NCBI GenBank assembly: GCA_015232315.1
Contig: JADFZZ010000026.1
Coordinates: 1 to 64,000, forward strand
Origin: SAR324 cluster bacterium
GTDB taxonomy: Bacteria > SAR324 > NAC60-12
DNA length: 64,000 nt
Direction of reading: 5' to 3'
This document shows positions 9,965-12,512 of the stretch, piece by piece (position 1 is the first letter of the stretch; each line of letters begins with the position of its first letter). A program made the translations under genes and the position numbers. A model generated the notes under the pieces. The model saw only the letters and a list, made by a program, of their open reading frames with translations. It was not told where the DNA came from and did not search any database.

Positions 9965-10456
9965 CTATTGCTGATAGAATTCAGAGAACAAAATCCGTTT
10001 CACAGGAGCTGTATCTTCCCATGGTGCCAGATTGGGAAACAGGGAATTCAGTTTAATCTGCAAATCCCGTCGCAGAAGCTGTCGTGTGCGAGCTTCATTG
10101 AGTTGACGGGAAGTTAATTCCTGTAAATGCGATATAATCAAGTCCTTCACAATCGGAAGGCGTCCTTCCATCCATGCTTTTGCGGCCGCGTTTGTAAAGG
10201 CAAGTTGCATAGTGGTTTTCAGATAATATTTGCCGTCTTTGAGATTGATGATGAATGTTCCCAGTTCCAGATACAGCGGATTTTCCAGAGGCGGAGGACC
10301 TTCTCTGATAATTTCAGGTTCTTTTTCCGGTTCCTGGTTCAGATAATAATATGCGGCACCCGCAGCAAGGAGAAGTAGAAGCAGAATAAGTAAAAACTTT
10401 CCTTTGCCACCACCACCACCACTGCCACCTTCTTCCAATCCATCGTCATCTGCCAT
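9965..10456 (-). CDS. fliL: Flagellar basal-body protein FliL, second paralogue
   Basis: A 163-residue single-pass inner-membrane protein. It has a short Gly-rich cytoplasmic N-terminus, a TM at about 21-40 and a periplasmic FliL domain: LELGTFIINLKDGKYYLKTT, a helical middle, and the C-terminal KRILFSEFYQQ. FliL forms a ring around stator units and modulates torque. It shares its whole layout with the gene just upstream (28 nt away), which points to a tandem duplication followed by divergence. The two may form a mixed ring around the stator; that is inference. Confidence 0.9.
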   Translation of the reverse strand: MADDDGLEEGGSGGGGGKGKFLLILLLLLLAAGAAYYYLNQEPEKEPEIIREGPPPLENPLYLELGTFIINLKDGKYYLKTTMQLAFTNAAAKAWMEGRLPIVKDLIISHLQELTSRQLNEARTRQLLRRDLQIKLNSLFPNLAPWEDTAPVKRILFSEFYQQ

Positions 10457-10484
10457 AGTTCCTTTTTATCCAGACAGGAATAAA

Positions 10485-10982
10485 TTACTGGATAAAGAAT
10501 TCCTGAAACAGCACTTTTTTGATTGGTTCAGGATCTTCCCACTCAGGTTTGCTGGGAAACAGGGTGCTGATTCGAGAAATCAGCCGTTGTTTCAATTCAT
10601 TTCTGGCTTCTGCCATTTTGATATCTTCGGTTGACAATTCCTGAAGTTCCGAGAGCACAATATCCTTCACTTCCAGAAGGCGTCCGTTCAGATAATCACT
10701 GGCTTTCTGATCGCTCAACATGAGCTGGATGGTGGTTTTCAGATATCTTCGGCCATCCTTGAGATTGACCACAAAGGTATCAATGTTAAGAAAAATCGGG
10801 GCTGCCAGAGGCTCTGCCGAGGATGAAATTTTTTCATCCGGGACGATTTCCTCCTCACCTTTAGGCTGAAGAAAAAACCAGGCTGCCGCGGCAATCAATA
10901 ATAATACAATGACAGCAACGATGATGATGATTAGTTTTTTACTGCCACCACCTCCGCCACTCTCTTCACCTTCATCTGCCAT
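10485..10982 (-). CDS. fliL: Flagellar basal-body protein FliL, first paralogue
   Basis: A 165-residue FliL homologue. The N-terminus is acidic and Gly-rich, TM at about 17-38 (IIIIIVAVIVLLLIAAAAWF), and the periplasmic domain reads LNIDTFVVNLKDGRRYLKTT and ends KKVLFQEFFIQ. It follows motB2 by 23 nt and precedes the second fliL by 28 nt. Placement between stator and switch genes agrees with the known role of FliL as a stator-associated collar. The copy is intact, with no missing segment relative to its neighbour. Confidence 0.9.
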   Translation of the reverse strand: MADEGEESGGGGGSKKLIIIIVAVIVLLLIAAAAWFFLQPKGEEEIVPDEKISSSAEPLAAPIFLNIDTFVVNLKDGRRYLKTTIQLMLSDQKASDYLNGRLLEVKDIVLSELQELSTEDIKMAEARNELKQRLISRISTLFPSKPEWEDPEPIKKVLFQEFFIQ

Positions 10983-11005: not shown

Positions 11006-11734
11006 TTAGTCGTTTTCATTGAGAATGACTATTTCAACACGGCTGTTCGTTCGCCGCCCCTTTGGAGTTTGGTTGGACGCCTTTGGTTGAGAATCGCCCT
11101 TGCCTGTCAAGGAAAGTTTGGCTGGTGAAACACCAACGTTCAGCATTTCTTTCAAAACACTTTGAGCCCTTGCCAGAGAGAGATCCCATGAATCCCGATA
11201 TTTGGAGGATCGAACTGGAGTCGTGTCGGTATGACCTTCGATACGAATCATGTGTCCTGTTTTATTCAAATATCGTGCAATCTGATGAATTGTTTGTTTG
11301 GCCGATGCACTCAACAGGGCACTGTTCCGTGCGAAAACGATATCAGCCGGTATTGTCACAATCAAGCCCTCATCCGATTGTGACAGTTCCACGTTACGGA
11401 CAGAATGTTCTGACAGGAACACTTCCAGACTTTCTTTTAAAATGGAATTTGCCCGTAAAATTCGAATTTCATCGGTACTTCTGGATTCATACATGGAAAA
11501 GAACCCCGGTTCCATGGAAGAAAGTGAACTTTGCTGGGATTTGGGATTGGGATCGTTGAAAGAGTAAAGTAACACAAAAAAAGTCATCATCAATGTGATG
11601 AGGTCGCTGAACGTGACCATCCATGCGTTGGGATCCAATTCGTTCCCGGATTTTTTTTTCTTTTTTTCTTTTTTAACGGGAACCTGAACTGTTTCCTCCA
11701 GGACAGGCGCACTCCGTTCATGGTCCTGTGCCAA
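11006..11734 (-). CDS. motB: Flagellar stator protein MotB/PomB (functional type)
   Basis: A 242-residue stator B subunit. The start is set at TTG 11734: GGAGGG lies 5 nt upstream and the frame overlaps the previous gene by 17 nt. An upstream in-frame start would overlap motB1 by 140 nt. After a Lys-rich N-terminus, the single TM at about 39-60 carries the ion-carrying Asp44 in TFSDLITLMMTFFVLL. This resembles the sodium-type PomB/MotS pattern more than the proton-type MotB pattern. A periplasmic OmpA-like peptidoglycan-binding domain follows (IEGHTDTTPVR, then SLARAQSVLKEML). It works with MotA to couple ion flow to rotation. Confidence 0.88.
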   Translation of the reverse strand: MAQDHERSAPVLEETVQVPVKKEKKKKKSGNELDPNAWMVTFSDLITLMMTFFVLLYSFNDPNPKSQQSSLSSMEPGFFSMYESRSTDEIRILRANSILKESLEVFLSEHSVRNVELSQSDEGLIVTIPADIVFARNSALLSASAKQTIHQIARYLNKTGHMIRIEGHTDTTPVRSSKYRDSWDLSLARAQSVLKEMLNVGVSPAKLSLTGKGDSQPKASNQTPKGRRTNSRVEIVILNEND

Positions 11735-12512
11735 GAGGCCCTCCGAGTAAATGGACAGGGTTGATGATGACAATCGTGATCCGCCGATTTTTTTCCCGGC
11801 CTTCTGAAAACCGGTTGCTGGCCAGTGGACGCTGACTGCTGTATCCTGACGCGGCAAAACGAGAAGCGGGTACCATACTTTTTTTTAGAAAATATCTGAG
11901 AACCCGCATGGAGCGATCAGCGGATAATGTCCAGTTCGGGTCAAAATCAGACACTCGAAAGGGGACGTCATCGGTGTGTCCTTCAATACGGACACGGTTT
12001 TCAGACCGTTCAATGAAATTATAGATTTTATCCATAAACGGATAAGCTTTAGGCTGAATTTCTGTTGAATTTTCCTGGAAGGCAAAGCGCGTTGGAATAT
12101 GAATCAATAAGGCTTCGTTTGTCACTTCATAGGAAAATTGTTCCAGGTCTCGATCCTCTTCTGAATATCCCTGGAGTTCAGATAAAAATGTTTCAACCTC
12201 AGCACTCACTTCCAGTTTTTCTTTGCTCGTTCCGCGTCCGGTTTCAAACGCTGGCCCCGTATTGTTGAGTATTCCGCCAATGGATTCGAAGGCGCGTTTG
12301 ATTTCCAGTGCGATTTTAGCCTGTTTTTTATTATTTGGAGAAGACAACGCATAGAGCAAAATAAAGAAGGCCAGCAGAATCAGGGACAAGGACGTCATCA
12401 TGACGGTGTTGCTGTCTCCGGTGGGTCGGAAACGGGAGTGTTCAACAGTTATGTCGAGGCCCTCAGGTATTGCCCCCGGAGCCTGAAAACGATAGACATC
12501 GTGGAATTTCAT
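11718..12512 (-). CDS. MotB-like protein lacking the ion-binding Asp
   Basis: A 264-residue MotB/OmpA-family protein. A TM at about 37-56 is followed by a linker and an OmpA-like peptidoglycan-binding domain (IEGHTDDVPFR, LSADRSMRVLRYF). Aligning the TM without gaps to the neighbouring motB2 through the FF(I/V)LLY motif puts Ser41 where the ion-carrying Asp should be; the nearest Asp is Asp33 before the membrane. So it looks like a stator B subunit that cannot carry ions in the usual way. Its ATG overlaps the motA stop by 4 nt (ATGA) and its 3' end overlaps motB2, so the three are translated together. It may act as a structural or regulatory partner. Confidence 0.85.
   Translation of the reverse strand: MKFHDVYRFQAPGAIPEGLDITVEHSRFRPTGDSNTVMMTSLSLILLAFFILLYALSSPNNKKQAKIALEIKRAFESIGGILNNTGPAFETGRGTSKEKLEVSAEVETFLSELQGYSEEDRDLEQFSYEVTNEALLIHIPTRFAFQENSTEIQPKAYPFMDKIYNFIERSENRVRIEGHTDDVPFRVSDFDPNWTLSADRSMRVLRYFLKKSMVPASRFAASGYSSQRPLASNRFSEGREKNRRITIVIINPVHLLGGPLGTGP

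Follow-up and report, generated by a model that had tools for sequence, protein, structure and literature searches.

One MotA followed by two unlike B subunits

The stretch of DNA analysed here, referred to as the window, comprises 64,000 nucleotides from a SAR324 cluster bacterium (positions 1 to 64,000 of contig JADFZZ010000026.1, assembly GCA_015232315.1), and it carries a flagellar stator operon in which one A subunit gene, motA, is followed by two B subunit genes, motB1 and motB2 (Table 1). MotB2 is a canonical B subunit with the aspartate predicted to bind the ion in the pore, whereas MotB1 has a serine at that position, and the pairing of an Asp-less with an Asp-bearing B subunit recurs in several phyla. 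motA is the sole A gene of the set, and its product aligns over its full length with its top PDB match, Vibrio PomA (E 2e-58). Reading of the junctions bears out the initial annotation, according to which both B genes follow motA with gene overlaps: the stop of motA and the start of motB1 share 4 nt (ATGA), and motB1 and motB2 overlap by 17 nt, the TTG codon that starts motB2 (at 11734) lying within the 3' end of motB1. These overlaps, together with the internal Shine-Dalgarno-like motif, suggest coupled synthesis.

Table 1. Features of the stator operon and of the adjoining fliL genes, in window coordinates (aa, amino acids; pLDDT, predicted local distance difference test)
Feature	Position	Strand	Basis
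motA, PomA-type A subunit, 252 aa	12509..13267	-	Pfam MotA_ExbB 9e-30; PDB match Vibrio PomA
motB1, Asp-less B subunit, 264 aa; transmembrane helix, linker and OmpA-like peptidoglycan-binding domain	11718..12512	-	Pfam, alignments, AlphaFold model m73bdc80bbd95
Transmembrane helix of motB1, predicted to span residues 34-57, around NTVMMTSLSLILLAFFILLYALSS	12342..12413	-	block pLDDT 78-92
Ser41 codon of motB1, pore position; S/A/G/C in every Asp-less homologue	12390..12392	-	alignments
OmpA-like domain of motB1 (residues 145-243), with GHTD and the LSxxRA Arg preserved	11784..12080	-	Pfam OmpA 4e-19; Foldseek
motB2, 242 aa, canonical B subunit with the pore Asp; starts at TTG	11006..11734	-	start re-read; alignment of orthologues
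Asp44 codon of motB2, predicted ion-binding residue; invariant in 13/13 orthologues	11603..11605	-	alignment
Shine-Dalgarno-like GGAGGG, inside motB1, upstream of the motB2 TTG	11739..11744	-	junction reading
fliL, copy 1	10485..10982	-	Pfam FliL 1.7e-17
fliL, copy 2, tandem paralogue	9965..10456	-	Pfam FliL 1.2e-13

The missing pore aspartate

The initial annotation had placed Ser41 of MotB1 opposite Asp44 of MotB2 without gaps, a register that was confirmed in three ways, the residue numbering being exact with the TTG start of motB2. When a profile alignment was used to ask whether an Asp of MotB1 falls at the pore position, it gave the Ser instead, and the absence of the Asp was upheld. In this comparison, for which 20 MotB1 homologues were combined into a profile and aligned to chains from the PDB, the small residue of MotB1 came to lie opposite the pore Asp of the MotB proteins of Clostridium sporogenes and Bacillus subtilis, with zero gaps through the helix. 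The MotB1s of Desulfobacterota retain both anchors of the register, namely a Trp at -6 and FF at +8 and +9 of the site (WQIVYTGFVLILLCFF vs WLTTFNDLITLLMVFF), with Gly as the residue between them, and those of the SZUA-149 group (FTVSFTSFSLILLAFF) are intermediate, bridging both helix forms.

Helix prediction and the gap-free profile alignment describe MotB1 as a protein with a single N-terminal transmembrane helix of the MotB_plug type. In Pfam it matches OmpA and MotB_plug, the latter with 23.7 bits, 0.3 short of the cut-off of 24 (60.6 in MotB2), and the helices of the two B subunits are 32% identical. Rescue by another acidic residue was considered and rejected, as the MotB1 helix of the window holds no other acid; in the SZUA-149 group, a D sits 13 residues past the pore site.

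Distribution of MotB1 and constraint on its sequence

Homologue counts derive from a contig scan and are lower bounds, and helices were located by a matrix blind to the pore column. At least 43 distinct Asp-less MotB1s were found, 37 of them in a de-duplicated table and six more at L263, L264 and L266-L269. They belong to the phylum of the window, where orthologues occur in at least 13 of the 52 genomes examined and in two families, to Desulfobacterota (L059, L063, L071, L084, L101, L119 and many further genomes), to the SZUA-149 phylum (L093, L211-L221) and to one Troglogloeales genome (L077/L224), whose helix aligns weakly. The MotB2 frame of the latter (L077:4641-6080) is 480 aa long and has an additional OmpA-like domain before its transmembrane helix. 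Within the table, the pore residue is S in 20 proteins, A in 11, G in five and C in one, and it is S or A in the six further ones.

In the table, MotA lies upstream of MotB1 in 36 of 37 cases, the remaining one being cut by a contig end, and an Asp-bearing MotB2 lies directly downstream in 35 of 35 uncut cases (33 scored, L130 and L133 by reading), while the last two of the 37 MotB1s end at a contig edge. The six further loci share the motA-motB1-motB2 plan, MotA not being flagged upstream of L267, and the downstream MotB2 has the D in every MotB1-MotB2 pair seen. Moreover, in two incomplete genomes, G062 and G065, the only other full-strength match to the MotA/TolQ family is TolQ (G065 has, in addition, one sub-threshold match), for which reason the motA-motB1-motB2 set seems able to drive a motor alone, as the sole flagellar stator of these genomes.

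MotB1 is also constrained in sequence. Across 23 lineages, its helix is 49% identical, versus 34% for the periplasmic part, and carries the signature [SAGC]-x3-I-L-L-[AC]-F-F-I, in which I at +4 (23/23) stands where MotB2 carries L, A or C at +7 stands where MotB2 carries T or V, and FF at +8 and +9 is invariant. The ratio of non-synonymous to synonymous substitution rates (dN/dS) is 0.09, equal to that of MotB2 (L008/L010). Its OmpA domain has conserved the Asp and Arg positions used in peptidoglycan binding: GHTD is nearly invariant and, in A1 and A3, the Arg of LSxxRA fully so. Its AlphaFold model (mean pLDDT 77.6; 24-sequence alignment) was matched by Foldseek to the periplasmic domains of PomB and MotS. 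Because the helix is constrained, the dN/dS low and the OmpA domain conserved, MotB1 is, by sequence criteria, a maintained subfamily and no relic.

A natural helix replacement and other dual-B sets

Could homologues regain the Asp, as the initial annotation had considered? This was encountered once, by helix replacement, and the overall Asp-less pattern stands. The operon concerned, L141, has the order MotA-B-B, and its MotA groups with those of the A-B1-B2 operons L132, L133 and L138. Its first B subunit is 63% identical in the periplasm to MotB1 of L133 and 34% to its own MotB2, whereas its helix bears the Asp and is 77% identical to that of its own MotB2. By these identities, the protein is best described as a MotB1 orthologue whose helix was swapped for a MotB2-like one, which shows that the lack of the Asp in MotB1 is tolerated, not indispensable. 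Such a swap is expected if both helices occupy equivalent sites in MotA, implying that they probably fill the same kind of site. L265 (G102), where two adjacent MotBs are both Asp-bearing with B2-like helices and a flgI-like open reading frame (ORF), not motA, lies directly upstream, was dropped as a second case of this kind, since its periplasmic part scores alike with the MotB1 and MotB2 profiles.

The window genome holds a second MotA-MotB-MotB set (contig C10, L037:2324-4522), with the Asp in both helices. Its motB genes share an identical 92-nt run encoding exactly PFDQEWIFTYGDLVTLLLCFFILLFSMCKM, the periplasmic parts being 42% identical, which suggests that the helix-coding run may have arisen by gene conversion, and the dual-B pair of G004 also has a fully identical helix segment. 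Given that these two pairs and that of Aquifex (see below) share their helices, whereas those of motB1 and motB2 differ, dual-B stators come in two forms, with homogenised or with asymmetric helices. The layout of the C10 set recurs in several other genera of the window's family. A third pair of the window genome (C32, L039) consists of a MotA of 320 aa and a single Asp-bearing MotB, with a pilin-like gene downstream.

A different arrangement was observed at L258-L262 (G311, G321, G330, G354 and G390, in the phylum of G064), where a FliF_C-FliG fusion, a divergent MotA, an Asp-MotB, a Thr-MotB and a TPR protein are encoded (Pfam domains were checked in L262, and ORFs read in L258 and L262). 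The second MotB has Thr at the pore (WMLPYSTLMLTLVILF), so that the order of the B subunits is reversed with respect to the window. This is apparently an independent asymmetric B pair, possibly part of a flagellum-like machine.

Flagellar neighbourhood and origin

The MotA of the window belongs to a flagellar operon, with the two fliL genes and FliN-, FliO- and FliP-like ORFs (named by sequence reading) downstream on the minus strand. In the Desulfobacterota loci that were read, the order is flgD-flgE-motA-motB1-motB2-fliL-fliM-fliN-fliO-fliP. Tandem fliL paralogues, as in the window (9965-10982), also occur in two other genera of its family (L276, L277), while the loci checked in the sister family and in Desulfobacterota have a single fliL. 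Since no checked locus outside the window's family shows the duplication, it was discarded as a component of the module.

Regarding the origin of the set, MotB1 clusters in a tree of periplasmic domains, in which a single clade is not rejected (approximately unbiased test, p 0.53). A first MotA tree rejected one A-B1-B2 clade (p 2.5e-4) with L141 mislabelled as single-B; after relabelling L141 and removing distant rows, a post hoc regrouping, one clade is not rejected (p 0.89). A single ancient origin of A-B1-B2 is plausible from these trees.

Mechanism and alternatives

The initial annotation proposed either a stator with unlike B subunits or an accessory B, and this pair of ideas has proved apt, given that the Asp is absent, that the overlapping genes follow motA and that the asymmetry is conserved across phyla; the placing of MotB1 and MotB2 in one ring, the stoichiometry and the number of ions are what we infer. 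The reading that we favour, with middling confidence, is a hetero-stator, MotA5-MotB1-MotB2, with one ion site. MotB1 and MotB2 would be unlike axle halves of one unit, MotB2 providing the single ion-binding Asp and the helix of MotB1, with its Ser41, taking the second axle position and binding no ion, while the OmpA domains of both would fix the unit to peptidoglycan. What favours it is the combination of one MotA gene, overlapping B translation, a constrained Asp-less helix and helices that are interchangeable in evolution.

The main rival, possible rather than probable in our view, casts MotB1 as an accessory B subunit that does not conduct. MotA5(MotB2)2 would then do the work, and MotB1, either by itself or in the form of MotA5(MotB1)2, would act, bound to peptidoglycan, as a scaffold, an assembly factor or a brake competing for motor sites. 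Lacking an ionisable pore residue, a MotB1 homodimer cannot conduct in the known way; the OmpA domain of MotB1 is intact and similar to those of PomB and MotS, and other motors do possess anchors of the OmpA type, MotY for example. However, the strong constraint on the MotB1 helix and its swap for a MotB2-type helix in L141 exceed what a plain anchor needs, and every MotB1 that could be checked was accompanied by MotB2. It is improbable, in turn, that interchangeable stators (both homodimers and the heterodimer) share one MotA, with the output tuned by the MotB1:MotB2 ratio. Several stators do serve one motor in Pseudomonas (MotAB/MotCD) and Bacillus (MotAB/MotPS), and the separate second set of the window genome has two Asp-bearing B genes behind one MotA, but overlapping genes in a fixed order argue for a fixed synthesis ratio instead of independent tuning.

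The remaining readings have far less in their favour. Conduction by MotB1 through another residue (Ser41, or the Ser/Asn at +2) or through an acidic residue of MotA, as in GldLM, is very unlikely: the +2 position often holds Ser or Asn, but in 8/23 it is occupied by V, I, A or T, and the pore site is Ala or Gly in 16/37 MotB1s, which leaves no conserved ligand; MotA, moreover, matches Vibrio PomA over its full length. A view of MotB1 as a duplicate in decay, or as an artefact of annotation or alignment, as its MotB_plug score slightly under the cut-off could hint, is scarcely credible in view of at least 43 distinct intact homologues over several phyla, the dN/dS of 0.09 and the preserved helix signature; a pseudogene, a frameshift and a misalignment are each ruled out by the conservation, the dN/dS and the anchored register.

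Several points nonetheless weigh against the hetero-stator. The heterodimer is a deduction from sequence, and separate A5(B1)2 and A5(B2)2 units around one MotA would be expected to lead equally to helix exchange and conservation. Co-evolution of the helices was sought as well, and within-pair identity (28%) gave no pair-specific signal over between-genome identity (28%). In addition, the turnstile model requires two alternating sites, protons being swapped between them at each 36-degree step; a unit with one site might therefore be unable to turn in this way, and according to the review that presents the model (PMC9389320), five ions per turn would demand an entirely new one. A widespread rotary motor of broken symmetry, in which MotA5-MotB1-MotB2 with its one ion site advances 72 degrees per ion and uses 5 ions per turn, is put forward here tentatively, as a somewhat doubtful extension of the hetero-stator; if true, 5:2 rotary motors do not require alternating two-site ion binding.

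Significance and comparison with known systems

In a search confined to open literature, no paper describing an Asp-less B partner came up, and as far as this literature shows, such a partner next to an Asp-bearing B is a hitherto undescribed form of the MotAB stator. A 2025 study of MotAB evolution took as B subunit the gene directly downstream of motA, and its text makes no mention of the aspartate (PMC12505986); this suggests that, in the lineages described here, studies choosing the gene right after motA would take the B subunit without the Asp. In current models of MotAB, ExbBD and TolQR, the axle is assumed to consist of two identical subunits with alternating Asp, at 10 ions per turn, an assumption for which a conserved pair of Asp-bearing and Asp-less B subunits is an evolved test. 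As distantly related bacteria share the MotB1-MotB2 pairing, a lopsided unit with one ion-binding site in place of two probably drives some flagella.

Among known motors, the 5:2 motor GldLM has an axle subunit without a MotB-type Asp. Unlike the window set, its GldM is homodimeric, lacks an OmpA domain and has no obvious sequence homology to MotAB (PMC9389320). Closer in layout is Aquifex aeolicus, whose operon likewise has one motA and then two motB genes with divergent periplasmic domains (the B subunits are 97% identical in the transmembrane part and 23% in the periplasm; PMC4525482), although its transmembrane segments are homogenised, whereas the window pair is asymmetric, at the helix identity given above. 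The gliding motor AglRQS of Myxococcus also combines a single MotA-like protein with two that resemble MotB, which may form a heterodimer or homodimers, but the conserved Asp is described for AglQ as well as for AglS, and there is no flagellar context (PMC9389320). In both of these dual-B systems, unlike in the window, the two B subunits thus have the pore residue, and this also holds for the C10 set of the window genome, likewise composed of one MotA and two MotBs. With the canonical MotA5-MotB2 and PomA5-PomB2 stators, the window operon shares a PomA-type MotA, B subunits built of an N-terminal transmembrane helix, a linker and an OmpA domain, and an operon with fliL and export genes; it departs from them in having two B genes per A gene, one without the pore Asp, which would leave a single ion site if both are paired.
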